Assembly: GCA_017454075.1 (NCBI GenBank)
Contig: JAFTDQ010000003.1
Coordinates: 1 to 13,798, forward strand
Length of the DNA: 13,798 bases
DNA from: Clostridia bacterium
GTDB taxonomy: Bacteria; Bacillota_A; Clostridia; Oscillospirales; CAG-272
Reading direction: 5' to 3'
How positions within the stretch are numbered: the stretch's first letter is position 1; every line of letters begins with the position of its first letter. Both the position numbers and the translations under genes were made by a program. Below the pieces are notes generated by a model. The model saw nothing but the letters and a program-made list of their open reading frames with translations. It did not search any database and was not told where the DNA came from. Positions 1 through 13,348 of the stretch are shown piece after piece.

Positions 1-132
1 CGATGCTTTGGATATTTTATATCTCCGGCATACAAACGATATGTCTTTCGTCAGCCTGTATAATTCCACCGCATACTTTTTTGTTGATATTTCATGTGGA
101 CAATACCTCTTTTTTGTGCTATAATCTTTCAT
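1..132 (-). CDS. Transposase, N-terminal fragment (cut by window edge)
   Basis: The first 44 codons of a minus-strand gene that runs off the left edge. The peptide begins MKDYSTKKRYCPHEIST and continues to a basic helix-turn-helix segment ending VCRRYKISKAS. That is how the DNA-binding front end of IS3/IS481-type DDE transposases looks, judged from memory of the family. The catalytic integrase core would lie outside the window. The start at 132 is supported by an AAAGGA ribosome binding site (143-149 on the plus strand reads tcctttc). Codons are AT-rich, unlike the thyA operon beside it, which fits a mobile element. Whether the element is intact cannot be seen. Confidence 0.7.
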   Translation of the reverse strand, partial: MKDYSTKKRYCPHEISTKKYAVELYRLTKDISFVCRRYKISKAS

Positions 133-222
133 GGTGATTGATTCCTTTCTGACAGATTGGCATTAGGGGTAATTCTATTCTATCAGAACTCAATCACTTT
201 TTCTATTCTTTTTTCCTTTTTC

Positions 223-248
223 AGTCTCACATCAATTGTAACTCTACA
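223..248. repeat. Putative insertion sequence end (terminal inverted repeat)
   Basis: Read on the minus strand, this stretch begins TGTAGAGTTACAATTGATG and lies about 115 bases upstream of the transposase start. Many IS3/IS481 elements start with TGT at such a distance. Base composition changes right here: AT-rich to the left, GC-rich (ctcgaggcggacggcg) to the right. The partner repeat lies outside the window, so this is inference from position, the TGT start and composition. Confidence 0.4.
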
Positions 249-278
249 CTCGAGGCGGACGGCGTTTAACAAAACGGC

Positions 279-307
279 TTGACTTTCGGCCTGCGATAAT
301 CTATAAT
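279..307 (+). promoter_or_regulatory. Sigma-A promoter of the thyA operon
   Basis: TTGACT at 279-284, a 17-base spacer and a perfect TATAAT at 302-307. Transcription would start near 314, about 24 bases ahead of the thyA start codon, so the leader is short with little room for a riboswitch. The promoter lies about 30 bases inside the inferred end of the neighbouring insertion sequence, so it belongs to the chromosome rather than the element. Confidence 0.85.
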
Positions 308-337
308 TATATAAATCTTTCCCGAGAGGCAGGAAAA

Positions 338-1168
338 ATGAGTTTATTCGACAGGACCTTCGTCGGCACTTGCCGTGACATACTCGAAAACGGCACGCTC
401 GTCACCGACACAAAGGTCAGACCGAAATGGGACGACGGCGCCCCCGCTTACACAAAAAAGCTGTTCGGCGTCGTGAACAGATACGACCTTTCAAAGGAAT
501 TCCCGATGGTCACTCTCCGCCCGATATCCCTTAAGCTCGCCGTCGACGAGCTGCTCTGGATATGGCAGAAAAAATCAAACAACGTCAAGGACCTCGGCTC
601 TCATATCTGGGACGCCTGGGCAGATGAAAACGGAAGCATCGGCAAGGCGTACGGCTATCAGATGGGGATAAAGCACCACTACAAAGAGGGCGACTTCGAC
701 ATGGTAGACCGGGTGATTTACGATCTGAAAAACAATCCGTGTTCCCGCCGGATAATGACGAATATGTATAATTTTTCCGATCTCAGCGAGATGGCGCTCT
801 ACCCGTGCGCCTATTCCGTCACCTTCAACGTGACGGAGGGGCGGCTCGACGCCGTTCTCAGCCAGAGATCACAGGATATGCTCGCCGCAAACGCCTGGAA
901 CGTCGCTCAGTACGCCGTACTCGTCATGATGCTCGCTCAGGTCACGGGGCTCGTGCCCGGCACGCTGCTGCACGTGATCGCAGACTGCCATATATACGAC
1001 AGGCACATACCGATCGTCGAGGAGCTGATCTCCCGGGAACAGTACGACGCTCCGCGCGTCACGCTCGATCCCGACGTAAAGGACTTTTACGATTTCACCC
1101 CCGACTCAGTCCGGATCGAAAACTACGTCCACGGTCCGTCCGTCGGACGCTTTCCCGTAGCAGTATGA
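338..1168 (+). CDS. thyA: Thymidylate synthase
   Basis: Converts dUMP to dTMP using methylenetetrahydrofolate, leaving dihydrofolate; a cytosolic homodimer in the known family. The 276 residues are close to the usual bacterial length. Visible motifs are the paired arginines that hold the dUMP phosphate (R137-R138), the catalytic cysteine C157 in LYPCAYS, the RSQD motif (177-180), the conserved asparagine in WNV (188), HIYDRH (218-223), and the typical C-terminal FPVAV that closes over the active site. The residue after the catalytic cysteine is alanine, where the E. coli enzyme has histidine; I recall similar PCAY sequences from other clostridial or phage-like ThyA proteins. An aggaaa ribosome binding site sits at 331-336. 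The stop overlaps the folA start by four bases (ATGA), so the two are translationally coupled. Confidence 0.95.
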   Translation: MSLFDRTFVGTCRDILENGTLVTDTKVRPKWDDGAPAYTKKLFGVVNRYDLSKEFPMVTLRPISLKLAVDELLWIWQKKSNNVKDLGSHIWDAWADENGSIGKAYGYQMGIKHHYKEGDFDMVDRVIYDLKNNPCSRRIMTNMYNFSDLSEMALYPCAYSVTFNVTEGRLDAVLSQRSQDMLAANAWNVAQYAVLVMMLAQVTGLVPGTLLHVIADCHIYDRHIPIVEELISREQYDAPRVTLDPDVKDFYDFTPDSVRIENYVHGPSVGRFPVAV

Positions 1169-1680
1169 GCATCAGACTTATCGCCGTGGCGGCGACGGAC
1201 GACAACAACGGAATAGGAAGGGACGGAAAGCTCCTCGCCCGCGTGTCGGAGGATATGAGGTGGTTCCGCCGCCTCACCGAGGGCGGAACGGTCATTGTCG
1301 GGCACAACACCCTGTCGTCCTTCCCGGGCGGGCGGCCGCTCAGAAACAGGCGCAATATCGTTTTCAGCCGCGACCGCTCCCTGAAAATTGACGGCGCAGA
1401 GGTCGTTCATTCGGTCAAGGAACTGTTCAAATCCCTCGACGGAGACGCTTTCGTCATAGGCGGAGGACGTATATACCGCATGCTCGTGCCGTTCTGCGAC
1501 ACTGTTTACATAACGAGATACAGGCGTTCCTTCCGCTCGGATACGTTTTTCCCGGTCCTGAGGGAATCCGACGGATGGTATCTCTCGGGCGTTGCCGGCT
1601 CTTTCGTAACGGGAGAGGGGGACGATCCCGAGGGAATGCTCTGCGATCTTCTCGTTTACAGGAGGAGAAATCAGACATGA
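1165..1680 (+). CDS. folA: Dihydrofolate reductase
   Basis: Reduces dihydrofolate to tetrahydrofolate with NADPH, regenerating the cofactor that ThyA oxidises. From the overlapping ATG the protein is 171 residues, normal for the family; a longer open frame upstream in the same phase lies inside thyA and is not used. Visible motifs are NNGIGRDGKLL near the N-terminus (14-24), the substrate-binding acid D30 in EDMRWFRR, the VGHNTLSSFPGGRPLRNRRN stretch that contacts NADPH and folate (45-64, divergent: GHNT in place of the usual GRKT), and the FVIGGGRIY nucleotide loop (96-104). The usual LPW after the first loop reads LLA. It has no clear ribosome binding site of its own, consistent with coupling to thyA. 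It overlaps the next gene by four bases. Confidence 0.93.
   Translation: MSIRLIAVAATDDNNGIGRDGKLLARVSEDMRWFRRLTEGGTVIVGHNTLSSFPGGRPLRNRRNIVFSRDRSLKIDGAEVVHSVKELFKSLDGDAFVIGGGRIYRMLVPFCDTVYITRYRRSFRSDTFFPVLRESDGWYLSGVAGSFVTGEGDDPEGMLCDLLVYRRRNQT
1660..1667 (+). promoter_or_regulatory. Strong ribosome binding site fixing the 1677 start
   Basis: AGGAGGAG lies inside the end of folA, nine bases before the ATG at 1677. It shows that the next protein starts at MIPEKF and not at the longer upstream frame beginning at 1575. Confidence 0.85.
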
Positions 1681-2336
1681 TACCGGAAAAGTTCAGAAAA
1701 GCGCTCGGGACAGCGATCCCGGTCGCGGCCGTTGTTCTCATCATCGCGCTCGCCGTGATATTCAGGGCGGACATCTTCCCGGGCTGGCACGAAAAGGACG
1801 GCGTTTTGACCTACGTCACCTTCCCGTTTGTAAGGGCCAAGGGCATGGCGGACATAGGCGGGCACCGGTACTATTTTTCGGAACGCGGCGGGAATCCGCT
1901 CGTAAAAGGGTGGTTCAAGACCGACGGATATTACTACTACGCCGACGAGAGCGGCCGGCTCGTCACCGGCGAACGGGTCATCGGCGGCGAAAGCTGGTCG
2001 TTTGAGGCGGATTACAGGAATTACCGCAACGAGGCGGTCATCGTCGGCGGCCGGCTCTGGTATTTTGACAGCCACGGATACAAGGTGTTCGGCATTGTCG
2101 AGCTCAACGGGGAAAAGTTCTGTTTCTCCGAAAACGGGAATCTCTCCCACGGGCTGCAGAACCTCGACGGAAAATACTATTATTTCGACCCCGAAAACGA
2201 AAATATGGTTTACGGACTTAAGACAGTCGGCGGAGCGGTCTATTACTTTGGGGAGGACGGAGCCGCATATACCGGGACTCACGTCATAGACGGCGTCGAA
2301 TACACGTTTGCCGAGGACGGCAAGAGGATAAACTGA
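1677..2336 (+). CDS. Membrane-anchored protein with cell-wall-binding repeats
   Basis: A 219-residue protein of unknown precise role. Residues 12-29 form one hydrophobic helix after a short basic N-terminus, so it is either a signal anchor or an uncleaved signal. The rest (about 59-219) is a row of roughly 20-residue aromatic, glycine-rich repeats such as GGHRYYFSERGG, DGYYYYADESGRLVTG, NGEKFCFSENGNLSHG, DGKYYYFDPENE and GGAVYYFGEDGAAYTG. This is the pattern of choline- or glucan-binding (CW_binding) repeats, which in known proteins hold onto cell-wall teichoic acid or glucan. No catalytic domain is attached, so it looks like a binding-only or scaffold protein. It overlaps folA by four bases and ends one base before asd, so it is firmly inside the operon. 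Confidence 0.82.
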   Translation: MIPEKFRKALGTAIPVAAVVLIIALAVIFRADIFPGWHEKDGVLTYVTFPFVRAKGMADIGGHRYYFSERGGNPLVKGWFKTDGYYYYADESGRLVTGERVIGGESWSFEADYRNYRNEAVIVGGRLWYFDSHGYKVFGIVELNGEKFCFSENGNLSHGLQNLDGKYYYFDPENENMVYGLKTVGGAVYYFGEDGAAYTGTHVIDGVEYTFAEDGKRIN

Positions 2337-2337
2337 A

Positions 2338-3435
2338 ATGAAATGCAATAATCCGGATAAGAAAATCAAAGTTGGAATAATTGGCGCGACGGGCATGGTC
2401 GGACAGCGTTTCATAACCCTGCTGAGCGATCACCCGTGGTTTGAGATCACCTCGCTCATGGCAAGCGGACGGAGCGCCGGTCGGACCTACGCCGAGGCAG
2501 TCGACGGAAGATGGAAGCTCCCCGTGCCCTGTCCCGAAAAGATACTCGGCATGAACGTCGCGGACGCGTCGGACGTCGGGGCAGCCGCAGACTCCTGCGA
2601 CATGGTGTTCTGCGCCGTCAACATGCCGAAGAGCGAGATACTTGCGCTTGAGGAAAAATACGCGCGCGCCGAGCTGCCCGTGGTGTCGAACAACTCCGCA
2701 AACCGCTGGACGCCCGACGTTCCGATGGTCGTGCCGGAGATAAACCCCGGCCACCTCAGCGTTATCGAACATCAGAGAAAGCGCCTCGGAACAAAGCGCG
2801 GGTTCATCGCGGTAAAGCCCAACTGTTCGATACAGAGCTACGTCCCGATGCTCACGCCGCTTCTCGACCTCGGTCCCCGGACAGTCCTCGCGACGACCTA
2901 TCAGGCGATCTCGGGTGCGGGCAAGACGTTCCGCGAATGGCCGGAGATGGTCGACAACGTCATCCCGTACATAGGCGGCGAGGAGGAAAAGAGCGAGCGC
3001 GAGCCGCTCCGCCTCTGGGGACGCGTCGAAAACGGAGAGATCGTCCCGGCGTCTTCTCCCGTCATTACGACCCAGTGCATAAGAGTCCCCGTGACGGACG
3101 GACACACGGCGGCGGTCTTCGTCAGTTTTGAGAACAAGGACGTGACGAAGGAAGAGATCGTTTCGCGCTGGAACTCCTTCGAGGGCGAGCCGCAGAAGCT
3201 CGGGCTCCCGTCGGCTCCCGCAAAGTTTATAACCTACTTTGATGAAGACGACCGCCCTCAGATAAAGACCGACCGCGAACTTTACGGCGGAATGGGCGTG
3301 AGCTGCGGACGGCTCCGCCGCGACACGGTGTTCGACTGGAAATTTGTCGGAATGTCCCACAACACCCTCCGCGGAGCGGCGGGCGGCGCTGTGCTCATCG
3401 CCGAGCTGCTCGCGGCAAAGGGGTATATAAAGTGA
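2338..3435 (+). CDS. asd: Aspartate-semialdehyde dehydrogenase, archaeal/fungal type
   Basis: Reduces aspartyl phosphate to aspartate semialdehyde with NADPH, the branch point towards lysine/diaminopimelate, threonine and methionine. The 365 residues start with a Rossmann nucleotide loop GIIGATGMVGQRF (13-25). The catalytic cysteine is C163 in KPNCSIQ, followed by TYQAISGAGK (187-196), and the RVPVTDGH stretch supplies a substrate arginine (R249) and the base histidine (H256). The PNCSIQ form and overall length match the branch first described in archaea and yeast rather than the E. coli Asd type. Diaminopimelate made downstream would serve peptidoglycan, which fits the surface-protein genes on both sides. 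Its stop overlaps the next GTG start. Confidence 0.93.
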   Translation: MKCNNPDKKIKVGIIGATGMVGQRFITLLSDHPWFEITSLMASGRSAGRTYAEAVDGRWKLPVPCPEKILGMNVADASDVGAAADSCDMVFCAVNMPKSEILALEEKYARAELPVVSNNSANRWTPDVPMVVPEINPGHLSVIEHQRKRLGTKRGFIAVKPNCSIQSYVPMLTPLLDLGPRTVLATTYQAISGAGKTFREWPEMVDNVIPYIGGEEEKSEREPLRLWGRVENGEIVPASSPVITTQCIRVPVTDGHTAAVFVSFENKDVTKEEIVSRWNSFEGEPQKLGLPSAPAKFITYFDEDDRPQIKTDRELYGGMGVSCGRLRRDTVFDWKFVGMSHNTLRGAAGGAVLIAELLAAKGYIK

Positions 3436-5030
3436 GCCGCGCAAAGATCGCGCTGCTCACCTCCCTGGTCGTCCTGTCGGCCGCCCTCGCCCTGTCTTCT
3501 CTCACTGCGGCCGCCGGGGAGGGCAAAATAATAGTCCCCGGGCGGACGGTTTCGACGCAGGAGGATTTCTTCGTCGCTCTCGGAGGGGAAAAGACCTCCC
3601 GGATAAACAGCGACGGCTCGATCTTTCTTTTTGAAACGATATACCTTGAAACGCCGATCGTCCTCTCGGAAGGGGATTTTCGTCTCGACGGAAACGCCGA
3701 CATAGTACCCGGAGATTTCCCGGCTTTTGTGCTTGAAAACGGCGCGACGCTCTCCGTCGGAAAGACGGAGCAGCCGGAAAAGCAGGACGAACGCGACGTC
3801 TCCATCGCGTTCGACGGCGAAGGGAAGACCTTTTCAACGCCGCTCATCAGGGTCGGCGAGGGCTGTACCCTTTCGACTCATTATCTTTTCAGAATAAAAA
3901 ACCGCGTTTCGACCTGCGACGGGTGCGCGATTGAAAACGCCGGGACGTTCGTCATGTACGAGGGCGAGATCTCTTCGTGCCGCAGTCTCGGAGCGGGAGG
4001 CGCCGTATACAATACCGGCACGGCGGTCCTGCGCGGCGGGACGATAACCGGCTGTTCCGCCGAAAACGGCGGCGCGGTCTCCGGAAGCGGCGAGCTCAAT
4101 CTCGCCGGGACTCAGATCCAGAATTGTATGGCGACCCTCGGGGGCGCGATATTCGGAACGGGAAAAACCGTCCTTACCGCCTCGTCGGTCATTGAGTGCG
4201 GCGCCGTTAACGGCGGCGCGTTCTGCGGGACCGGAGAGTTCGTGTTTTCCGGAGGCGTCGTCGAAAAATGCTCCGCCGACGAGCGGGGCGGCGGTCTGTT
4301 TATCGCAAAAGGCGGCTCTGCGGATATCAGCTCAGCCCTCTTTGACGGATGTACCGCCGCGATATCCGGGGGTTCGGTCCACAATGAGGGCGAACTCAAG
4401 CTCTCGGGAGGAATGCTGAGCGAAGGCGAGGCGGACCGCGGAGGAAACGTTTTCAACGTCTCCGGCGCCCGTACCGTCGTAACCGGCGGACAGTGCGTTC
4501 GCGGGAAAGCCGCCCTCGGCGGCGGGATATTCAACGAGGGGTATCTTTCGCTCACGGTAAGCGGAGTGTCGTCAAACAGAGCCGATCACGGCACCGCCGT
4601 ATTCAATTTCGGCGAGTTTCACATAAGCGGGTTTCCGTACCTGGACAAAAAACATGATTTCTTCCTCGTCATGAACGACGGGGATCCGCATCCTCTTTTC
4701 GTGGATTCGGAAATGAAAGCCGACGTTATCGCCCGGCTCACGCCCGGGACCTTTGACGGGCAGAGCGCCGTCCCCGTCTTTGACGAGGGGGTAAAGGTAC
4801 TCGAGGGCGATTTTGTCTCCCAGGCGAGCGGGCACTACACCCTGACGCAGCCGGAGGACGGGAGACAGCTCGTCATCTCGGAGGGCGTCGTCACACGCGT
4901 CCGCTCGGTTTTCGAGGGCCCCGTCATCTACGTAGCGGCTGCGGCGGTATACGTCGCGCTCATCGCGGGTATCGTGGCGGCGGCGCGCCTTGCCGATAAA
5001 AAGAAAAACCGGGACAAAAAACCGTCCTGA
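3432..5030 (+). CDS. Secreted, membrane-anchored beta-helix repeat protein
   Basis: A 532-residue surface protein that I do not recognise beyond its fold. It begins with GTG, supported by the site AAAGGGG at 3417-3423 nine bases upstream and by the signal peptide that follows (basic start, hydrophobic 6-26, AAAG cleavage-like site). Residues about 165-400 are 20-residue glycine-rich repeats (GGAVYNTG, GGAVSGSG, GGAIFGTG, GGAFCGTG, GGGLFIA, GGSVHNEG, GGNVFNV, GGGIFNEG). Many contain one cysteine (GCSAEN, NCMATL, ECGAVN, KCSADE, GCTAAI). This is typical of right-handed parallel beta-helix proteins of the Pmp-like kind. A transmembrane helix at about 498-518 and a lysine-rich tail anchor the C-terminus; there is no LPXTG sorting motif. 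It is the last gene of the thyA operon. Adhesin or structural roles are possible, but nothing in the sequence decides this. Confidence 0.78.
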   Translation: MSRAKIALLTSLVVLSAALALSSLTAAAGEGKIIVPGRTVSTQEDFFVALGGEKTSRINSDGSIFLFETIYLETPIVLSEGDFRLDGNADIVPGDFPAFVLENGATLSVGKTEQPEKQDERDVSIAFDGEGKTFSTPLIRVGEGCTLSTHYLFRIKNRVSTCDGCAIENAGTFVMYEGEISSCRSLGAGGAVYNTGTAVLRGGTITGCSAENGGAVSGSGELNLAGTQIQNCMATLGGAIFGTGKTVLTASSVIECGAVNGGAFCGTGEFVFSGGVVEKCSADERGGGLFIAKGGSADISSALFDGCTAAISGGSVHNEGELKLSGGMLSEGEADRGGNVFNVSGARTVVTGGQCVRGKAALGGGIFNEGYLSLTVSGVSSNRADHGTAVFNFGEFHISGFPYLDKKHDFFLVMNDGDPHPLFVDSEMKADVIARLTPGTFDGQSAVPVFDEGVKVLEGDFVSQASGHYTLTQPEDGRQLVISEGVVTRVRSVFEGPVIYVAAAAVYVALIAGIVAAARLADKKKNRDKKPS

Positions 5031-5045
5031 AACAAAAAAATCAAT

Positions 5046-5073
5046 GCGGGGATCGGTCGATCCCCGCTTTTTT
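5046..5073 (+). terminator. Intrinsic terminator ending the thyA operon
   Basis: Perfect 9-bp stem GCGGGGATC (5046-5054) with GATCCCCGC (5059-5067), loop GGTC, then six T. On the minus strand the same stem is followed, after five bases, by a run of seven T, so it may also stop the converging ABC transporter transcript. Confidence 0.92.
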
Positions 5074-5086
5074 CGTATCCGTTTTA

Positions 5087-7027
5087 TCAGTCGAGTTCTT
5101 TGATGCCGGTGTAAAGCTCGTAATAACGGCCTTTCAGGGCGAGCAGCTCGTCGTGAGTCCCGCGCTCGATTATCCTTCCCTTTTCGAGGACCATGATGGC
5201 GTCGGCGTTTCTGACCGTCGAGAGACGGTGAGCTATCACGAACGTCGTGCGGTCCTTCATCAGTCTGTCCATGCCGTGCTCGATATGCCGCTCGGTCCTC
5301 GTGTCGACCGAGCTCGTCGCCTCGTCGAGGACGAGTATCGGCGCCTTTGATATCGCCGCCCTCGCAATATTGAGAAGCTGCCGCTGACCCTGCGAAAGGT
5401 TCGAGCCGTCCCCGTCGAGAACGGTATCATATCCGTTTGAAAGCCGCATTATGAAGCTGTGCGCCGAGGCGGTCTTCGCCGCCTCCACGACCTCGTCGTC
5501 CGTCGCGTCCGGGCGGCCGTAACGTATGTTTTCCATTACCGTTCCGGTGAAAAGATGCGTATCCTGAAGGACCATCGCTATGTTTTTCCGGAGCACGTCG
5601 CGCCGGATATCCCGGATACTTACGCCGTCTATCGTGATCCTTCCCTCTTCAACGTCGTAGAATCTGTTCATAAGATTCGTGACCGTGGTTTTTCCGGCTC
5701 CGGTAGAACCGACGAACGCGATCTTCTGACCCGGATCTGCCGAAAGGGTTATATCGTGGAGCACCGTTTTTTCGGGAACGTACCCGAACGTGACGTTCTC
5801 GAGGCGTACCTCGCCCCTTATCGACGGCATATCGACGTCGGTCTCGTCGTCCGGCTCCTCGGGCTCGGCGTCCATGACCTCAAAGACGCGTTCAGCTCCT
5901 GCGAGCGCGGCGAATATCGTCGCCGTCTGCTGTGAGATCTGGTTTATCGGCATGGAGAAATGCCGGCTGAAATTCGCAAATACGGTGAGCCCGCCGGGCG
6001 TGAGCCGGCCGAGCACCATGAGCACTCCTCCGACCCCGACGGTGACGGCGTAGGAGATCTGGCTCGTGTTGCCGAGTATTGGTCCCATTACCCCGCCCCA
6101 GAACTGCGCCCTGAACTGCGTTCCGCGCATGTCGTCGTTGAGCATCCCGAACTCTTCGACGCAGACGTCCTCATGGTTGAATATCTTGACGACCTTCTGC
6201 CCCGTCACGGTCTCCTCCATATATCCGTTCACGGCGCCGAGCGCCGCCTGCTGGGCGGAATAATACTTCCCGGAGAATTTGCCTATCATCGCGCCGAGCC
6301 GGGCGAATACGGGAACGAACACGACCGTTACGAGAGTAAGCTGCCATGACGTCGTCACCATGAAAACGAAGGTCCCGACGAGCGTCACGAGCCCGGAAAC
6401 CAGCGACGTGAGCGAATTGTTTATCATCGTATCAATGTTGTCGACGTCGTTTGTGAACCTGGACATTATCTCGCCGGTCGGATGTGAATCGAAATACCTG
6501 ACCGGGAGGCGCTGGAGCCGTGAGAACAGATCGTTCCGTATCTTTTCCGTCACGCTCTGCGATATGCCTATCATGAGACGGCTCTGGAAATACGTCGTTC
6601 CGATCCCGATTATATATACAGATCCGAGGATTATCACCGCGGCCGCGACGTATCCCGTCACGCCGGCGCTTTCGCCCGCCGCTCCGTTTATCACCCTGTC
6701 GGCGACGGCCTCGGCCGGGCTCATCGTGACGACGGCGCCGGGAACGGTCTCGACCGTAAGTCTGTTTATGACCGGGGCGAGCAGGAACGTCCCGAAAAGG
6801 GACGTCACGGAGCTCACGAGCATGCAGAGGAGCACGACGGAAAACCGCCCCCAGTAGCCCTTCATATAACCGAGCATCCGTTTTATCGAGGCGGCCGCGT
6901 TTTTCGGCTTGCCGGTCATGCCCTGCATCCTCCCGCGGGGCGGACGCATCTGCGCCTTTCCGCCGTCCTTCTGCGCGCGGGAATTGTACCTGGCTCTCAG
7001 ATTTTCAAGATCTCTTGCGTGCGTCAT
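5087..7027 (-). CDS. ABC exporter half-transporter, catalytically competent partner
   Basis: A 646-residue protein with an N-terminal membrane domain of about six helices and a C-terminal ATPase. Motifs: Walker A GSTGAGKTT (440-448), Q-loop Q488, signature LSQGQ (544-548, where LSGGQ is usual), Walker B ILVLDE (564-569) with catalytic E569, and switch histidine H600. The partner gene just upstream has the complementary defects, so the two should form one heterodimeric exporter of the TM287/288, LmrCD or BmrCD kind, often drug or lipid exporters; the substrate is unknown. The start chosen is the ATG at 7027. It has AAAGGAG eight bases upstream and lies five bases after the partner's stop, whereas the longer frame from 7060 would start inside that gene. 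The polar, basic N-terminal 45 residues are an extension before the membrane domain. Confidence 0.92.
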   Translation of the reverse strand: MTHARDLENLRARYNSRAQKDGGKAQMRPPRGRMQGMTGKPKNAAASIKRMLGYMKGYWGRFSVVLLCMLVSSVTSLFGTFLLAPVINRLTVETVPGAVVTMSPAEAVADRVINGAAGESAGVTGYVAAAVIILGSVYIIGIGTTYFQSRLMIGISQSVTEKIRNDLFSRLQRLPVRYFDSHPTGEIMSRFTNDVDNIDTMINNSLTSLVSGLVTLVGTFVFMVTTSWQLTLVTVVFVPVFARLGAMIGKFSGKYYSAQQAALGAVNGYMEETVTGQKVVKIFNHEDVCVEEFGMLNDDMRGTQFRAQFWGGVMGPILGNTSQISYAVTVGVGGVLMVLGRLTPGGLTVFANFSRHFSMPINQISQQTATIFAALAGAERVFEVMDAEPEEPDDETDVDMPSIRGEVRLENVTFGYVPEKTVLHDITLSADPGQKIAFVGSTGAGKTTVTNLMNRFYDVEEGRITIDGVSIRDIRRDVLRKNIAMVLQDTHLFTGTVMENIRYGRPDATDDEVVEAAKTASAHSFIMRLSNGYDTVLDGDGSNLSQGQRQLLNIARAAISKAPILVLDEATSSVDTRTERHIEHGMDRLMKDRTTFVIAHRLSTVRNADAIMVLEKGRIIERGTHDELLALKGRYYELYTGIKELD

Positions 7028-7032
7028 GCCGG

Positions 7033-8760
7033 TCACTCCTTTCCCGTCTGCGAGAGGCATATCTCGCGGTATTCGTCGTTGCCGGCAAACAGCTCGTCGT
7101 GAGTGCCGACGCCGGTTATAACGCCGTCGTTCATCACGGCGATGAGGTCGGCGTCGCGCACCGAGCTTATCCGCTGGGCGATTATGATCTTGGTGGAACC
7201 GCCGAGCTCTTCGAGGAAGGCGCGGCGTATCTGCGCCTCGGTCGCCGTGTCGACCGCCGAGGTGCTGTCGTCGAGAATGAGTATCTTCGGCTTTTTAAGC
7301 AGGGCGCGCGCGATGCAGAGCCGCTGCTTCTGCCCTCCCGAGACGTTTTTCCCTCCCTGCTCTATCACCGTGTCGTATCCGTCGGTAAATGAACTCACGA
7401 ACTTGTCTGCCTGCGCGTACCCCGCGGCTTCGCGTATCTCTTCGTCGGTCGCGTCGCCGTCTCCCCATCTGAGGTTTTCGGCGACTGTACCCGAAAACAG
7501 GCTGTTTTTCTGCAGTACCATGCCGACGCCCTCGCGGAGATTCCTGAGAGTATAATCCCTCACGTCCCTTCCGTCGATAAGTATCTTCCCCGAATCGGCG
7601 TCGTAAAGCCGGGGAATAAGCGAGACGAGCGTCGTCTTTCCGCAGCCCGTCGAGCCGATTATCCCGACGGTCGAGCCCGCCGGTATCTTTATGCTGACGT
7701 CGTTCAGCACGGGGTCGGGGCTGTCCTTGTAATATCTGAAGCTCACGTGACGGAGCTCGATCTCGCCTTTTTCGACGGTGAGCGTCGGGTCGGCGTTCTC
7801 TCCGTCCTCGATGTCGACCTTTTCGTCAAGGACCTCGGCGATACGCCTGGCCGATGCGAAGGTCCTCGAGCTGCTTATCAGCATGAAGGTTATCATCACA
7901 AGAGAAGACAGTATCTGCGTCACGTAGGTTATGAACGCCGAAAGGTCGCCGACGGGCATGTCGCCCCTCAGCACTATCGGACCGCCGATGAGAATAACGG
8001 CGATTATCGTCGCGTTCATTATAACCGTCATGACCGGCTGCATGAATATCATGACCCTCATGGCGGAAAGGCCGGCCTTTTTGAGTTCACCGTTCACTCG
8101 GCCGAACTTGGCGGTCTCGAAGTCCTCGCGCACGAAGCTCTTTACCACCCGGACGTTCGTCACGTTCTCGCGGACAGTCGAGTTCAGCCCGTCGATCTTT
8201 TCCTGCATGCGCGAAAATCTCGGAAATCCGACGAATATGATCCCGCCGACCGTCAGGAGCATGACGGGAATGCTCACGGCGAACACCGTCGAGAGCGACG
8301 GGCGGATCGTGATCGCCATGACGAGCGCGGCGATCATCATGCCCGGCGAACGCAGCATCATGCGGAGCATCATGTTTATGAAGTTCTGCAGCTGCGTGAC
8401 GTCGTTCGTCAGTCTCGTGACGAGACTCCCGGTCGAGAACCGGTCGATGTCTGCGAAGGAATAGGATTGTATCTTCCCGTAAACGTCGGCCCTCAGGTCC
8501 GCGGCAAAATTCACCGAGGCCTTTGCGCCGAAATAGGCGCCTCCGACGCCTCCCGCCATCATGAGAAGCGCACAGAGGATCATGAGACCCATTATCAGAA
8601 GACTCCCGGGGACGGTGAGGACCCCGTCGTTCGCCCTGTTTATCACCTCGGCGAGGAGACGGGGCATGATTACCTCCCCGACGACCTCGACTATCATGCA
8701 GAGCGGACCGAATATAAAGTACGGAAGATACGGTTTTACGTATTTCAGCCAGCGTTTCAT
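7033..8760 (-). CDS. ABC exporter half-transporter, degenerate-site partner
   Basis: A 575-residue membrane-plus-ATPase protein, first gene of the exporter pair. Motifs: Walker A GSTGCGKTT (369-377), Q417, an intact signature VSGGQ (473-477), and Walker B ILILDD (493-498). Aspartate (D498) stands where the catalytic glutamate is expected, and the switch histidine is glutamine (Q529 in IAQR). Its own ATP site should hydrolyse poorly, while its good signature completes the partner's site. This is the known division of labour in heterodimeric exporters. Its stop lies five bases before the partner's start, and the AAAGGAG site for the partner overlaps its last codons. A TATAAT at 8812-8807 lies upstream; the -35 is poor. 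The ribosome binding site is weak (GGGAAA) and next to a GC palindrome. Confidence 0.92.
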   Translation of the reverse strand: MKRWLKYVKPYLPYFIFGPLCMIVEVVGEVIMPRLLAEVINRANDGVLTVPGSLLIMGLMILCALLMMAGGVGGAYFGAKASVNFAADLRADVYGKIQSYSFADIDRFSTGSLVTRLTNDVTQLQNFINMMLRMMLRSPGMMIAALVMAITIRPSLSTVFAVSIPVMLLTVGGIIFVGFPRFSRMQEKIDGLNSTVRENVTNVRVVKSFVREDFETAKFGRVNGELKKAGLSAMRVMIFMQPVMTVIMNATIIAVILIGGPIVLRGDMPVGDLSAFITYVTQILSSLVMITFMLISSSRTFASARRIAEVLDEKVDIEDGENADPTLTVEKGEIELRHVSFRYYKDSPDPVLNDVSIKIPAGSTVGIIGSTGCGKTTLVSLIPRLYDADSGKILIDGRDVRDYTLRNLREGVGMVLQKNSLFSGTVAENLRWGDGDATDEEIREAAGYAQADKFVSSFTDGYDTVIEQGGKNVSGGQKQRLCIARALLKKPKILILDDSTSAVDTATEAQIRRAFLEELGGSTKIIIAQRISSVRDADLIAVMNDGVITGVGTHDELFAGNDEYREICLSQTGKE

Positions 8761-8767
8761 CTGTTTC

Positions 8768-8781
8768 CCGGCCGCGGCCGG
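8768..8781. repeat. GC palindrome in the leader of the ABC exporter operon
   Basis: CCGGCCGCGGCCGG is a perfect 14-base palindrome that ends eight bases before the ATG at 8760. In RNA it could fold as a 5-bp stem with a CGCG loop next to the start site; as DNA it could bind a dimeric regulator. Either role is inference. Confidence 0.45.
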
Positions 8782-8806
8782 ACGCCTTTCTGGTTTCTTT
8801 CTTTTT

Positions 8807-8835
8807 ATTATACTATCGTCGGTATTTTTTCAGGT
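8807..8835 (-). promoter_or_regulatory. Probable promoter of the ABC exporter pair
   Basis: A perfect TATAAT on the minus strand (8812-8807), 47 bases ahead of the start codon. At 17 bases spacing the -35 would be ACCTGA (8835-8830), a poor match, so an activator or weak expression is possible. It lies just downstream of the terminator of the preceding minus-strand gene, giving the pair its own transcription unit. Confidence 0.5.
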
Positions 8836-8849
8836 TAACAAAATGTTAA
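8835..8849. repeat. TTAACA/TGTTAA inverted repeat next to the exporter promoter
   Basis: TTAACA (8835-8840), three A, then TGTTAA (8844-8849). It abuts the presumed -35 region of the exporter promoter, so it could be an operator. It also touches the T-run of the upstream terminator, so part of the signal may be accidental. Confidence 0.35.
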
Positions 8850-8876
8850 AAAACCCGCTCTCGGAGCGGGTTTTTT
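8848..8876 (-). terminator. Terminator of the small conserved gene at 8891-9457
   Basis: A 7-bp GC stem (CCCGCTC 8854-8860 with GAGCGGG 8864-8870, loop TCG) flanked by six A on one side and six T on the other, so it reads as an intrinsic terminator on both strands. Only the minus strand has a gene running into it, 15 bases after that gene's stop. Confidence 0.88.
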
Positions 8877-8890
8877 ACTGTTTTCGGGGA

Positions 8891-9457
8891 TTATGCCCAG
8901 GGATTTGCTTCCTTTGCCGGACGGATGCCCATGTAAAGGCCGGCGTCCTGGAAGATGAACCACTCGCCGGTCGAGGCCTTTTTGCGGAGGGTGACCGGTC
9001 TGTCGTTGTCGGCTCCGCCCGAATGGACGAAGAGCGTGAGATAACCCTGATCGTACTGATCCTTGCTGTGAGCGCCGAGGGAGACCTTGATCACGCCGGG
9101 CTCGTTCGGAGTATAGTTGTTTTCGGGAGTTGCGCCCTCGAAATAAGATCTCGGGAGATACTCGCCGTTTGCCATTACTCTGTCGTTAAGGAAAGAGATA
9201 TCCTGAGCGGAGAGCGGGCTCGGACCCTTGAGGAAATTGTAGATCTCCTTGCCGGCTTCCTTGTCGACCGTGTAAACGTTATACGCGATGATGGTCATGG
9301 CGACCACGTTAGCGGGAACGGTGAGATCGCAGATGCTGAGTTTCTTGAGCTCCTCGAGCGACGCCGGGATGGTGTCGATCCTGACCTCTGTGGTGTTGTT
9401 TGTTACGGCGTCGACAACTGCCTTTGCCTTTGCCTTGAGCGAATCGAAAAGTGACAT
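8891..9457 (-). CDS. Conserved Firmicutes protein of unknown function (DUF6935-like)
   Basis: A 188-residue soluble protein with no signal peptide or membrane helix. It starts MSLFDSLKAKAKAVVDAV and has GPSPLSAQDISFLNDR, YFEGATPENNYTPNEPG and a tryptophan-rich end GEWFIFQ...NPWA. I recall this pattern from a widespread, uncharacterised family in gut Firmicutes, which I believe is called DUF6935; the name is from memory. Family members I recall have the same short helical N-terminus followed by this compact domain, so it looks complete. The start at 9457 rests on AAAGGAGG (9466-9473) eight bases upstream; the frame is open for 22 more codons, but these cover the promoter. It has its own promoter and terminator, so it is a single-gene unit. 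No function is assigned. Confidence 0.8.
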   Translation of the reverse strand: MSLFDSLKAKAKAVVDAVTNNTTEVRIDTIPASLEELKKLSICDLTVPANVVAMTIIAYNVYTVDKEAGKEIYNFLKGPSPLSAQDISFLNDRVMANGEYLPRSYFEGATPENNYTPNEPGVIKVSLGAHSKDQYDQGYLTLFVHSGGADNDRPVTLRKKASTGEWFIFQDAGLYMGIRPAKEANPWA

Positions 9458-9465
9458 ATCAAGTG

Positions 9466-9473
9466 CCTCCTTT
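9466..9473 (-). promoter_or_regulatory. Ribosome binding site fixing the 9457 start
   Basis: AAAGGAGG on the minus strand, eight bases before the ATG at 9457. It decides between this start and an ATG 22 codons further upstream. Confidence 0.85.
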
Positions 9474-9494
9474 TTAATTTGGTTTGCTTTTGTT

Positions 9495-9523
9495 ATTATA
9501 TCATAACCGCGGGCGGATTGCAA
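9495..9523 (-). promoter_or_regulatory. Promoter of the DUF6935-like gene
   Basis: TTGCAA (9523-9518), 17-base spacer, perfect TATAAT (9500-9495) on the minus strand, 38 bases from the start codon. The upstream plsC gene ends only about 20 bases away with no clear terminator, so read-through from plsC may add to expression. Confidence 0.75.
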
Positions 9524-9543
9524 GGGTCGCGGAGTATTTTTTC

Positions 9544-10416
9544 TTATTTTCCGGAGGGATCGCCGCCGAGGGGATAGTAATCCACCCTTTTCGAGCCGTC
9601 GTACACCGGCGGATACAAGTTTTCGGCGGGGTCGATGCCGGCGAGACGGCAGACCGCGTCGTGCGAGCGGACGATGAGGTCTTCTATCCTCTTGTTCTCG
9701 GGGAGCGTTTCGTCGGGGACAAGCGGCTCGCCTATATTAAGGGTAAAAAGCGCCGTCTGGCGGAATATCCTGCGCCTTATCCAACCCGGCTTCCGGTAGC
9801 TGAACCCAAGGGGCACGAGCGGCCGCCCGCATTTCACGGCGAAATAGGCGGCGCCGCTCTTGAACGGCCTTATCGGGCGGTAGTACTCCCACATGCTCCC
9901 CTCGGCGTAGACGTGTATCCATCCGCCGCCCGTGACGAGCTTTTTCACGGCGGAGATCATTGCGATCGACGCCCTGACGTCCCCTTCCGGCACGGGAACG
10001 CCGCCGACCAGGCGGATGAGCGTCCCGTTTTCGCCCCTTATGTTCTTCGCCCAGGCGAGGATGTTCGTACGGAACGGCCGCACCGCGTACATGATCGCCA
10101 TATAGTCCCACAGGTGAACGTGGTTGGCGCACGAGACCGCCCCGCCCTTCAGGAGCTCGCGGTTCTTTTTAATGTTCTCACGGCCGAGAACTCTCAGTCC
10201 GAGGCGGACCCTCATCACGAGGAACGCGAAAACGTCGAGCGCAAGGCGGGCGAGCCCGCGTTTCAGCTTCCCCGCCCCCGACTCGTCGACGTAGGGATAG
10301 TTTTTGTCGAGCACCGTGCCGTTGTTTTTCTTTACGACGAGATAGTGCGATCCCGTGTCCTCCGGGAAGGGGTATTTTGTCGGTTTCGGATCGAAATCAG
10401 CCGGAAGCTTTTTCAT
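9544..10416 (-). CDS. plsC: 1-acylglycerol-3-phosphate acyltransferase family protein
   Basis: A 290-residue PlsC-family enzyme, likely adding an acyl chain to lysophosphatidic acid in membrane phospholipid synthesis. The acyltransferase signature is clear: NHVHLWD (98-104, the NHx4D catalytic block), the glycerol-phosphate block as AEGSMWE (171-177, where EGTRS is usual), and block IV PLVPLGF (199-205). The divergent EGSMWE block means the exact acceptor is uncertain; other lysophospholipids are possible. A 50-residue polar extension precedes a moderately hydrophobic helix at about 55-75 that may sit in the membrane. The ribosome binding site is gagga (10421-10425). It is driven by a near-consensus promoter at 10481-10453 that diverges from the RNA gene promoter. 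Confidence 0.87.
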   Translation of the reverse strand: MKKLPADFDPKPTKYPFPEDTGSHYLVVKKNNGTVLDKNYPYVDESGAGKLKRGLARLALDVFAFLVMRVRLGLRVLGRENIKKNRELLKGGAVSCANHVHLWDYMAIMYAVRPFRTNILAWAKNIRGENGTLIRLVGGVPVPEGDVRASIAMISAVKKLVTGGGWIHVYAEGSMWEYYRPIRPFKSGAAYFAVKCGRPLVPLGFSYRKPGWIRRRIFRQTALFTLNIGEPLVPDETLPENKRIEDLIVRSHDAVCRLAGIDPAENLYPPVYDGSKRVDYYPLGGDPSGK

Positions 10417-10452
10417 TTTGTCCTCACGCCCCGTTCTTTTATCATCTCCCGT

Positions 10453-10481
10453 ATTATATCACATTATTCCGCGTCGGTCAA
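10453..10481 (-). promoter_or_regulatory. Promoter of plsC
   Basis: TTGACC (10481-10476), exactly 17 bases, TATAAT (10458-10453) on the minus strand. Its -35 box is ten bases from the -35 box of the divergent plus-strand promoter, so the two face away from each other and could compete for polymerase or share a regulator. Confidence 0.85.
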
Positions 10482-10491
10482 GAAAAAAGGC

Positions 10492-10520
10492 TTGACATCT
10501 CCGTAATTACTTGGTATAAT
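10492..10520 (+). promoter_or_regulatory. Consensus promoter of the RNA gene
   Basis: TTGACA (10492-10497), 17-base spacer, TATAAT (10515-10520): all twelve bases match the sigma-A consensus. The expected start is near 10526-10528, exactly where the long closing helix of the RNA begins. Confidence 0.92.
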
Positions 10521-10525
10521 AAACG

Positions 10526-10738
10526 CGCCAAACAAACCGAATATGATGAAGCATGGGCGCTTTTTTCTTTTTTTGAGAGCAAAGCACGTTTTTTGTGTGC
10601 AGTTATCCCGAATTTGACAAAACGCGAATTCCCACAGATGACTGCACGGAAAAACTATGCTTCATTACGGTTTGTTTGGCGACGACCGGGAATTGCGTTT
10701 TTGTGCGTCGGTTCCGGCCGGCGCACTTTTTGTTTTGT
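10526..10738 (+). ncRNA. Structured non-coding RNA, possibly 6S-like
   Basis: This transcript has its own consensus promoter and terminator but no credible reading frame. Bases 10526-10539 (CGCCAAACAAACCG) pair perfectly with 10668-10681, and 10546-10554 (ATGAAGCAT) pair with 10657-10665, giving a closing helix of 14 plus 9 bp with a small asymmetric loop. Inside, GTGCAGTTATC (10597-10607) pairs with GATGACTGCAC (10637-10647), and GTTTTT pairs with AAAAAC just outside it, forming a long apical hairpin. The remaining unpaired part is a 5' bulge with two T-runs (10561-10574). A long rod with an internal bubble and an apical hairpin resembles 6S RNA, which mimics an open promoter and sequesters RNA polymerase. 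The one-sided bubble does not fit well, so the 6S call is tentative. It could instead be the leader of the lipoprotein gene 50 bases downstream. Confidence 0.6.
10703..10736 (+). terminator. Terminator of the RNA gene
   Basis: GTGCGTCGG (10703-10711) pairs with CCGGCGCAC (10718-10726) with one G-T pair, a 6-base loop, then TTTTTGTTTT. It would stop the RNA before the lipoprotein gene, or act as an attenuator for it. Confidence 0.85.
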
Positions 10739-10745
10739 AAAAACT

Positions 10746-10764
10746 ATCCGGATTATATCCGGAT
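10746..10764 (+). repeat. Doubled ATCCGGAT palindrome before the lipoprotein gene
   Basis: ATCCGGAT at 10746-10753 and again at 10757-10764, separated by TAT. Each copy is self-complementary, so together they form an 8-bp hairpin with a very tight loop or two half-sites for a regulator. The pair lies 12 bases ahead of the AAGGAG ribosome binding site (10776-10781). There is no good promoter between the RNA terminator and the start codon. Confidence 0.45.
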
Positions 10765-10789
10765 CGAAAAAACTCAAGGAGAAAAATAA

Positions 10790-12712
10790 ATGAAAAAAAA
10801 TTTGTCACTCATACTGGCTGTTATTATGGTGCTCGGCGTGCTCGCCGGGTGCGCCGAACATGTTCATTTTTTTGGAGAGTGGACAACTATAAAAAAGCCG
10901 ACATGCATCGAAAGCGGTTTGCGTGAGAGATATTGTTCATGCGGTGAAAAGCAACAGCAAATAATTCAAGCGGACGGACATGTCATGGTTGAGGGAGTTT
11001 GTTCAGTATGCGGATATAGCGAAAAGCACTTCCACAAAGTCGGAAGTGACTGGTATAGTGATGAAGCGCATCATTGGCGTATTTGTGAAGAATGTGGTGA
11101 CAAAGCCGAAGAAGGTGCCCATTCTTTCGGCGAATGGAAAATAACTAAGAACGCAACAGAACAGCAAGAAGGAGAAAAAAAGCGACAGTGTACGATGTGT
11201 AAATATGAGCAAACTGAAATAATTGCCGTCCTTTCACACACACATAATTGGTCAAACAAGTGGTCGTCAAACAGCACAAATCATTGGCACGCATGTGCGT
11301 CTTGTCAAGAAAAAAATTCTAACGCAAAACACAGTTTCAGTGATTGGATCATTACAAAAGAAGCGACGACTACTGCAAAAGGGGCAAAATACAGAACATG
11401 TACTGTTTGTGGCTATAAACAAACGGAGTCGATTGCCAAAGTATCTCATACCCATGAATGGGGAAACTGGAACATTATAACTTATCCTACCGAGCAATCT
11501 AACGGGGAAATGTATCATAAGTGTTCAAAATGTGGCGCAACTGAAAATCAGGTATTGCAAGGGGGGAAGATCAATCCAATAAAATCAGATGGAGTAATTC
11601 AGTATGTTGGTTCTTGTTTTTATAACGGATCTATTCTATGCATACCGGAAACATGTAATAATATCCTTGTAGAACACATTGATTTTTTGGAGGCCCCGCC
11701 TAAGGGAATCGAGATTATTATCATTCCTAAAAGCGTTAAAAGCATTGGTGTTTTCCCGGCATACATAGAAGGAGTTGATGGGGTTCGGCAGCCTACGTAC
11801 AGGGGGAGTTTAAAGGAAGTCGTCATTCAAGAAGGAAGTGTATTGACCGAAATATCTTCACATTGTTTTAATGACGCTAGACTACTGGAAAAGATTAACT
11901 TGCCGCAATCACTACGAAAGCTTGGCGAAGGAGCTTTTGAAAATTGCTCCAAGCTTAAAGACATAGGTCAATGGCCGCAATATATAACAAGCGTTCCAGG
12001 GAAAGCATTCGAAAATTGCAGTTCACTTGATGTCTTGTTGCCAAATACAATTACTGCGGTGGGCGCAAATGCATTTGCGGGAACTAGTATAACAAAAATT
12101 AGCTTTAATAGCGTTTATCTTGGTACGTTTGCATTTACCAATTCAAAATTGAAGAGTGTGTACATAAAGCAATTAACAAATCGAAATGGCGATAACACCT
12201 CATGTCAATTTTCTAATTGCAATGCTTTGGAAGAGATTGTTATAAACGAACTTGAGACGATACCACGTAGATTTTTATCAGACTGCAGTAATTTAAAAAA
12301 AGCAGAACTGTCAAAGGACTTCAAAAATAAGCGAATAACAATTGGAGACTATGCATTCCAAAATTGTTCAAACTTGATTTCAATCATTACTTCCGAAGAG
12401 ATTTGGATAAGGGCTTACGCATTTGCTGGATGTCTCAGTCTGGAAAAAATTGAGATCCGCTACTTTGCTGGTTATATTCCAAACAATTGCTTTTCTGGAT
12501 GCGCAAAGTTATCGAGCGTAACGTTTGAACGTTGGAATGGTAGTAGGGCTGTTGGAACAACTGCTTTTTTGAACTGTAAAAATCTTTCGAATATCACTGT
12601 GCCAATCTCGGTGAGCGAGTGGAACAAAATGACAAAAGGAGACAATTGGGATTATGGTACCGGCAGTTACATTGTTCACTGCTCTGACGGTGATGTTGTT
12701 AAAACCGGCTAA
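10790..12712 (+). CDS. Lipoprotein with CxxC repeats and BspA-like leucine-rich repeats
   Basis: A 640-residue exported lipoprotein. The signal is a basic start, a hydrophobic core and the lipobox LAGC, with C21 as the lipidated cysteine. Residues about 25-255 hold cysteine pairs (CSC 49-51, then CxxC at 71, 99, 134, 169, 204 and 245). Several lie in a repeated unit: H-S-F-x-x-W, a T/E-rich linker, then CTxCxYxQTExIA. Such units occur in surface proteins of gut Firmicutes, and the CxxC pairs suggest metal binding or disulphides. Residues about 285-620 are leucine-rich repeats of the LRR_5/BspA type (GEGAFENCSKL, PGKAFENCSSL, GDYAFQNCSNL, YAFAGCLSLEKIEI), known elsewhere in adhesion. The end, SEWNKMTKGDNWDYG...VHCSDGD, is a common finish for such proteins. 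The site AAGGAG is eight bases upstream. Base use is clearly AT-richer than in genes 338-10416, suggesting horizontal gain. Confidence 0.87.
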   Translation: MKKNLSLILAVIMVLGVLAGCAEHVHFFGEWTTIKKPTCIESGLRERYCSCGEKQQQIIQADGHVMVEGVCSVCGYSEKHFHKVGSDWYSDEAHHWRICEECGDKAEEGAHSFGEWKITKNATEQQEGEKKRQCTMCKYEQTEIIAVLSHTHNWSNKWSSNSTNHWHACASCQEKNSNAKHSFSDWIITKEATTTAKGAKYRTCTVCGYKQTESIAKVSHTHEWGNWNIITYPTEQSNGEMYHKCSKCGATENQVLQGGKINPIKSDGVIQYVGSCFYNGSILCIPETCNNILVEHIDFLEAPPKGIEIIIIPKSVKSIGVFPAYIEGVDGVRQPTYRGSLKEVVIQEGSVLTEISSHCFNDARLLEKINLPQSLRKLGEGAFENCSKLKDIGQWPQYITSVPGKAFENCSSLDVLLPNTITAVGANAFAGTSITKISFNSVYLGTFAFTNSKLKSVYIKQLTNRNGDNTSCQFSNCNALEEIVINELETIPRRFLSDCSNLKKAELSKDFKNKRITIGDYAFQNCSNLISIITSEEIWIRAYAFAGCLSLEKIEIRYFAGYIPNNCFSGCAKLSSVTFERWNGSRAVGTTAFLNCKNLSNITVPISVSEWNKMTKGDNWDYGTGSYIVHCSDGDVVKTG

Positions 12713-12907: not shown

Positions 12908-13348
12908 ATGAAAAAACTAAGTGAAATAATAAAATTTCAAGATCATAGCAATATCAAGGTCGAGTTTAATCGTGATGACGGGACAGAAAATCGCGAACTG
13001 ATGTATAAACATTGGCTTGCTTTCGACTCAAAAAGGCGAGAAAACGGTGACGTAAAGGACATTTGCTTCCACAATTCAAAAACAAAAGCAAACCTCAAAA
13101 CCGGAATGACCGTGTTTTCGTTTGCGCAAAAGCCGGGTGATAAAGATTTATGGGTTTTACTGTTAGTAGCGGAAATAACAAAAGGTGAAAAGAACAGTTA
13201 CTGCGATTTTAGTGTGTTGACAGAGTATAAGCCATATTTTGGGAATCTTGAAATTCGCTTTCACAAGTCAATGGCATGCAGAATCATGTGGCTTGACACG
13301 GTTATTGACAAGTGCACGATAGTGAAAAAAACCGAGACACAATCATAG
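12908..13348 (+). CDS. Hypothetical protein resembling the N-terminal part of GIY-YIG proteins
   Basis: A 146-residue soluble protein with no signal peptide or membrane helix. The order of features is a short amphipathic start (KLSEIIKF), VEFNRDDG, a variable stretch, GMTVFSF...DLWVLLLVAEITK (66-92), then LTEYKPYFGNLEIRFHK (104-120) and a final VIDKCTIVK. I recall this arrangement (WLL..I..V, EY.PY.G...I.FHK, then a region ending I...V..I) as the non-catalytic front part of some GIY-YIG nuclease family proteins in Firmicutes. Those continue into a nuclease domain, whereas this one stops. The match is from memory and moderate. The ribosome binding site ACGAGGA (12894-12900) is well placed. AT-rich codons match the lipoprotein gene. 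It may be a stand-alone domain or a truncated gene. Confidence 0.6.
   Translation: MKKLSEIIKFQDHSNIKVEFNRDDGTENRELMYKHWLAFDSKRRENGDVKDICFHNSKTKANLKTGMTVFSFAQKPGDKDLWVLLLVAEITKGEKNSYCDFSVLTEYKPYFGNLEIRFHKSMACRIMWLDTVIDKCTIVKKTETQS

Follow-up and report, generated by a model that had tools for sequence, protein, structure and literature searches.

What is the structured RNA that lies between a divergently oriented plsC gene and a gene for a lipoprotein-like protein in a Clostridia bacterium, and what does it do there? We addressed this question within a window of 13,798 nucleotides (the whole stretch of DNA analysed, from contig JAFTDQ010000003.1) and through homologues of the RNA in other genomes. 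An earlier note, made from the sequence of the window, had described an orphan structured RNA gene, proposed that it may be a 6S-type RNA and added, as a side suggestion, a role as a leader or attenuator. From the observations below we hypothesize, with a probability of about 0.58, that the RNA belongs to a clade-specific family of cis-acting, gene-independent leaders that attenuate transcription, a reading based on sequence comparison.

The RNA and its surroundings

The features of the locus are collected in Table 1. The consensus promoter, closing helix, apical hairpin and terminator reported in the earlier note were all recovered, and its description of a structured RNA gene with its own promoter and terminator is supported. 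The promoter agrees with the consensus at 12 of 12 positions, the apical hairpin is present in the computed fold, and positions 10520-10738 fold with an energy of -94.6 kcal/mol, compared with a mean of -58.2 kcal/mol for 200 dinucleotide shuffles, none of which was as good (z = -8.8). A promoter scan of both strands of 10300-10900 found four promoter-like sites where 0.7 were expected. On the minus strand, a divergent promoter at 10453-10481 (TTGACC-17-TATAAT, 11 of 12 matches), 10 bp from the -35 element of the RNA promoter, presumably drives plsC.

The statement that the region holds no reading frame is a fair one: of the listed plus-strand frames of at least 60 amino acids, only a 138-residue frame starting at TTG (10377-10793) and a 64-residue frame starting at GTG (10595-10789) cross the RNA, and by eye both are implausible as genes. 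A conserved leader peptide starting from an ATG in strand X' was also considered and dropped by eye, the window and several other members having no ATG there. Between the terminator and the ribosome-binding site there is a perfect inverted repeat (10746-10764) with a terminator-like score on the minus strand. The GC content falls from 57.5% over positions 1-10440 to 39.9% in the gene behind the RNA, and a low-GC island extends from 10490 to the contig end at 13798 (35-45% in 500-base bins from 10501, compared with 57.5% before); it includes an open reading frame, 12908-13348, without a Pfam match.

Table 1. Features of the RNA and adjoining sequence in the window
Feature	Position	Strand	Basis or remark
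A-rich stretch	10480..10489	+	just upstream of -35, where the UP-element-like signal of the family has its A-rich half
Promoter TTGACA-17-TATAAT, TG ahead of -10	10492..10520	+	promoter scan; TTGACA 10492-10497, TATAAT 10515-10520
RNA, first conserved base to terminator T-run	10526..10731	+	model R1 match, 150.7 bits (the window RNA is one of the 30 sequences used to build R1)
Closing stem P1, 5' strand, GCCAAACAAACCG	10527..10539	+	fold, covariation
Closing stem P1, 3' strand, CGGTTTGTTTGGC	10668..10680	+	fold, covariation
Second rod helix, 5' strand, extends P1	10544..10554	+	fold; partner 10657-10667
Second rod helix, 3' strand	10657..10667	+	fold; partner 10544-10554
Strand X (GAATTTG), local partner of apical strand X'	10610..10616	+	fold, alignment
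Strand X', apical switching strand	10619..10633	+	pairing tests; partner X or X''
Strand X'', distal partner of X', just 3' of P1	10688..10702	+	pairing tests; five T at its end, adjoining the terminator
Intrinsic terminator, 10-pair stem (10703-10726) and T-run	10703..10731	+	terminator scan; covaries in the family
Ribosome-binding site AAGGAG of downstream gene	10776..10781	+	read from sequence
Downstream gene, lipoprotein-like, BspA-type leucine-rich repeats	10790..12712	+	PF13306, E 2.7e-48; lipoprotein signal called by eye and by a crude rule

A multi-copy family with conserved helices

No family of Rfam 15 reaches its gathering score anywhere in the window; a lax search of 10350-10850 lists seven matches, all far below the gathering score and 6S not among them, and a scan of 18 further loci, mostly with short forms of the RNA, gave nothing above gathering except two tRNAs. 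The neighbouring PlsC has 1173 homologues at E ≤ 0.001. Scanning with a 20-protein PlsC alignment that included the window's own, we took the best 80 of 241 loci, by title mostly from Clostridia metagenome-assembled genomes (MAGs) and many of them from the rumen. Searches of these loci with blastn and nhmmer gave nothing convincing, and a tie of the RNA to plsC was rejected; the covariance model R1 (below) finds in them one weak match, of 25 bits and 3 kb from plsC (L003).

When the RNA was compared by blastn with 196 relatives of the closest genome, strong matches were obtained, several of them in some genomes. Most concern the 3' part of the RNA and some its 5' end about 150 nt upstream; many of the weak matches in this search are chance. 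We examined 30 loci, 29 of which have a recognisable 5' start (L103, in which the 5' part was not found, was dropped), aligned these 29 homologues with the window RNA (alignment A2) and built R1 from these 30 RNAs. Closing stem and terminator are part of the model, and the pseudoknot described below is not. Of 98 relatives of one member genome, 55 have matches to R1, and a single genome may have as many as 16 copies. In the wider groups, matches occur in at least 68 of 118 genomes of the family, at least 99 of 295 of the order and at least 2 of 398 of the phylum, these two being the centre genome and a genome with a weak match. All four counts are lower bounds, as the filters were strict and few candidates were scored per genome. 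R1 also matches in 16 of 34 genomes with a PlsC relative, including a Saccharofermentans MAG and Ruminococcaceae bacterium AB4001, which is placed in the Oscillospiraceae by NCBI taxonomy and which we take to be a cultured rumen isolate. No blastn match to the RNA was found in plasmid records at E ≤ 1e-5 or in phage records at E ≤ 1.

Fitting copies to R1 gave alignment A4, with 106 copies from 99 sources; it is biased towards high-scoring copies, most of which come from the best matches listed in the search of the member genome's relatives. Twenty-four of the 106 are short forms (< 195 nt), one of which is in fact a long form truncated where its contig stops; the short form is without the middle hairpin region of the long form. 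Three loci (L165, L166 and L167) carry tandem pairs of the RNA on the same strand, 55-145 nt apart. The RNA is therefore no orphan, as the earlier note had called it; it belongs to a large, clade-specific family without an Rfam 15 match. At the level of titles and abstracts we found no such RNA family in the literature; an unnamed earlier prediction, in figures or supplementary alignments, is possible, and in human microbiomes 508 candidate RNAs at most 25 bp upstream of genes have been reported (PMC8040213).

Three helices covary in A2: the closing stem, the terminator stem and X':X'', the last being a pseudoknot between the apical strand and the strand that separates the closing stem from the terminator. 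The complementarity of 10688-10702 to the apical strand 10619-10633, like the spread of the RNA in many copies across the clade, lay outside the view of the earlier note, which had called for covariation in the two closing stems among homologues; covariation was looked for and is strong. In A4, 11 of 13 pairs of the closing stem and 7 of 15 pairs of the pseudoknot change on both sides, none of 500 shuffles of the whole structure reaches any of five measures, and slid-partner controls pair in 29-54% of cells, against 97.9% for the structure itself. The terminator stem likewise covaries and pairs in at least 97% of cells in both alignments. Since the pseudoknot is absent from R1, the fit of A4 gives it no advantage; its columns were chosen from one member.

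When both strands are fixed in A2 (30 sequences), the pseudoknot's own partners pair better than those in every one of 10000 permutations. In a permissive search of the whole interior (105 copies here and in the energy comparison, one of the 106 having been dropped), the preference for the own partner is kept in the 23 short forms, with 6 of 5000 permutations as good, and lost in the 82 long forms, with 553 of 5000 as good; the latter result speaks against partner specificity of X':X'' in the long form. The local helix X:X' is paired in 86.2% of cells, and 3 of its 7 pairs change on both sides. Strand X'' nearly repeats the sequence of strand X (in the window, GGGAATTG and GAATTTG, respectively; L225 has a similar near-repeat), so that the two conserved pairings of X' are mutually exclusive. 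In computed energies that ignore the loop cost, rod and pseudoknot differ by a mean of -0.02 kcal/mol (sd 8.6), the pseudoknot state being lower in 58 of 105 copies (50 of 82 long forms and 8 of 23 short forms) and, in the window, by 5.2 kcal/mol. An antiterminator built from the terminator arms was also considered, and none was seen by eye.

These findings bear on the first proposal of the earlier note, a divergent 6S RNA acting by polymerase mimicry. Like 6S RNA (RF00013), the window RNA is a rod of about 200 nt with an internal bubble and its own promoter; however, the Rfam covariance-model scan proposed in that note, once run, gave no RF00013 match in the RNA, even at E ≤ 10, and the family is multi-copy and has a conserved pseudoknot. 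In addition, 11 of 19 relatives have an RF00013 match at E ≤ 0.001 (four above the gathering cut-off), and six of these genomes carry such a match elsewhere as well as the leader RNA (G003, G004, G009, G016, G017 and G019, with only G009 and G019 above the cut-off), the matching sequences looking unlike the leader RNA by eye. The 6S RNA of a genome usually has no second 6S elsewhere, and in these six relatives the leader RNA would not be the sole one. A 6S identity is thus unsupported, and we consider it barely credible. As a separate observation, 7 of the 11 6S-family matches (L085-L091) lie below the Rfam gathering cut-off, so that annotation at the standard cut-off would miss them.

Placement before unrelated genes and in phages

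Promoter and terminator keep a fixed register with the RNA. In 92 of the 94 copies examined (the exceptions being L125 and L142), the best -35/-10 pair agrees with the consensus at 8 or more of 12 positions and has its end 5-6 nt upstream of the model start; the spacing is 17 nt in 89, and in 86 the promoter so placed agrees at 10 or more of the 12 positions. Over 104 copies, conservation extends from about 51 nt before the model start to about 5 nt past the model end, and the flanks are not conserved. The upstream limit near -51 is consistent with an UP element, a name that we assume to apply to this signal; its T-rich half (about -51 to -46) is absent from the window. Of 103 copies (three of the 106 were dropped), 69 have a ribosome-binding site and start codon no more than 60 nt past the terminator; the same arrangement follows 7 of 203 other terminators in these loci and 144 of 3000 positions chosen at random. 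In the remaining 34 copies crude gene calling found no such pair within that distance. The RNA is thus a structured element in the 5' leader of a gene, with an intrinsic terminator, as judged by sequence, between the two, and this placement makes the leader or attenuator role, mentioned only in passing in the earlier note, the best-supported reading.

The genes behind the terminator are diverse. The 71 downstream proteins analysed (A3; three of the 74 collected were left out) match 47 Pfam families in all, and the 25 listed include BspA-type leucine-rich repeats (10 proteins), collagen repeats (3), M23 peptidase (2), double zinc ribbon (2) and S-layer homology (1); by a crude rule, 26 of the 74 are lipoprotein-like. 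Three PADLOC defence families have one member each among the 71, which gives no link to defence. A small protein that starts with MI[IV]TFCGH recurs behind the leader in L151, L167, L178 and L175 (identity 50% for L151/L178 and 60% for L167/L178, with L175 alike by eye); it presumably resembles nucleotide-binding SLOG-type proteins, as judged by eye.

An RNA-protein pair of the type III toxin-antitoxin kind, in which the RNA would bind the neighbouring protein, has the same order of parts: promoter, pseudoknotted RNA, terminator and protein gene (ToxI-ToxN; PMC5086642). Unlike ToxI, however, the leader RNA has no tandem 34-36 nt repeats in the alignment, by eye, and similar RNAs precede proteins that are mostly unrelated to one another and span many families, ToxN not being among the 25 listed of the 47 Pfam families of the 71 downstream proteins. 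We regard this explanation as very improbable.

The independence of leader and gene is most evident in close pairs. Among the 28 RNA pairs that are at least 80% identical and have a protein behind each (22 of the 106 copies gave no usable protein), the downstream proteins are homologous in 3 and unrelated in 25, and the upstream flanks are similar in 1. The GC content of the downstream gene is below that of the upstream flank in 55 of 75 cases.

The RNA is also present in four phage contigs, three of which (L245, L246 and L247) carry the same sequence stretch and the fourth (L249) a related one; terminase genes were confirmed in L245 and L246. It precedes a zinc-ribbon-like gene in L246 and a different, PASTA-like gene in L249, both by Pfam matches below the curated cut-off. 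In L265 the site is empty, the flanks being 93 nt apart instead of 1187 and without an RNA match, and in L252 and L254 the same site is filled by another gene without the RNA. That gene, at the pre-terminase site (L252 2720-3730, L254 2795-3805), encodes an unrelated protein of 336 residues and has no leader. The pre-terminase site of these related phages is a cargo hotspot. Pattern scans of the viral collection gave no carriers of the RNA beyond these four contigs. Phage morons are autonomously transcribed extra genes in phage genomes, and the phage copies resemble them in having their own promoter and a cargo gene inserted where a relative has none; they differ in that the cargo genes vary behind one conserved, structured leader RNA. 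In full-text literature we found no paper that treats morons, prophages, leader RNAs and attenuation together.

Could the family instead be a small mobile element whose inverted ends mimic an RNA stem? The earlier note had named many genome copies with the same inverted ends as a sign of this, and there are indeed many copies per genome, tandem pairs and copies in phages, with dissimilar flanks on both sides; the ends, however, covary, as do the other stems and the pseudoknot, promoter and terminator keep a fixed register, and placement before genes is strong. Of 546 binned pairs, all with RNAs that align over 150 nt and are each followed by a protein, only one exceeds 90% identity. Target-site duplications gave no signal over 104 copies, 76 of 500 shuffled pairings being as long or longer, in a test with imprecise ends that could miss a short duplication. 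With neither duplications nor a population of near-identical copies found, we hold a miniature mobile element to be improbable.

We tentatively suggest a portable, gene-independent RNA switch: one design that may spread to, or capture, unrelated accessory genes in bacteria and phages. Genes newly gained would thereby come at once under a common signal sensed by the RNA, together making up a shifting regulon.

Attenuation as the preferred reading

A strong promoter, mutually exclusive pairings of nearly equal energy, a terminator and an adjoining gene start together make an attenuating leader the simplest reading. In the mechanism that we propose, the strong promoter would start the transcript at the closing stem and, during synthesis, the apical strand X' would pair first with the local strand X. 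Strand X'' would emerge just before the terminator and could then capture X', forming a pseudoknot directly against the terminator hairpin, and the partner kept by X' would set how often RNA polymerase reads through into the gene behind. Because the terminator arms lie outside the exchange of X', the step from pseudoknot to termination is an assumption; we suppose that the terminator works and is regulated, that the pseudoknot alters termination in one direction or the other, and that a ligand, a protein or an RNA shifts the balance of X'. The same leader would act in this way ahead of lipoproteins, BspA-type surface proteins, small proteins and phage cargo, all of them unrelated accessory genes, and, the leader being independent of its gene, a single signal could adjust a whole group of recently acquired genes.

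The strong promoter and the terminator also fit an abundant trans-acting small RNA, which would end at the terminator and act on other messages through the pyrimidine-rich X' (CTCC/TTCC), the next gene being a passenger reached by leak-through. Such an RNA would account for the promoter of at least 10 of 12 matches kept in place in 86 of 94 copies, for the conserved terminator stem and for the CTCC-like sequence, complementary to ribosome-binding sites as read from the sequence, in X' of the short form. It would not account for the translation starts that follow the terminator in 69 of 103 copies and in only 3-5% of controls, and a trans-acting RNA is not usually present in a genome as many diverged copies, each ahead of a different gene. 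We therefore think a trans-acting RNA rather unlikely, and retain the attenuating leader.

This leader shares with riboswitches and other attenuators its 5' position, its own promoter, exclusive alternative pairings and a terminator directly before the ribosome-binding site. It differs from them in being independent of the gene, with many copies per genome ahead of unrelated accessory genes, in having its switching strand outside the terminator stem, and in being without an Rfam 15 match (window and 18 loci) or a known ligand. The covarying exchange of X' opens the way to direct tests, and a named strain, AB4001, has a copy. Known leader RNAs usually precede the genes of one pathway and so reveal their ligand; in the present family, with as many as 16 copies in a genome, the genes that follow are surface and accessory genes mostly unrelated to one another and, in a few cases, phage cargo. 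This points to a signal of general state, or to a layer of control over acquired genes, in bacteria of the gut and rumen.
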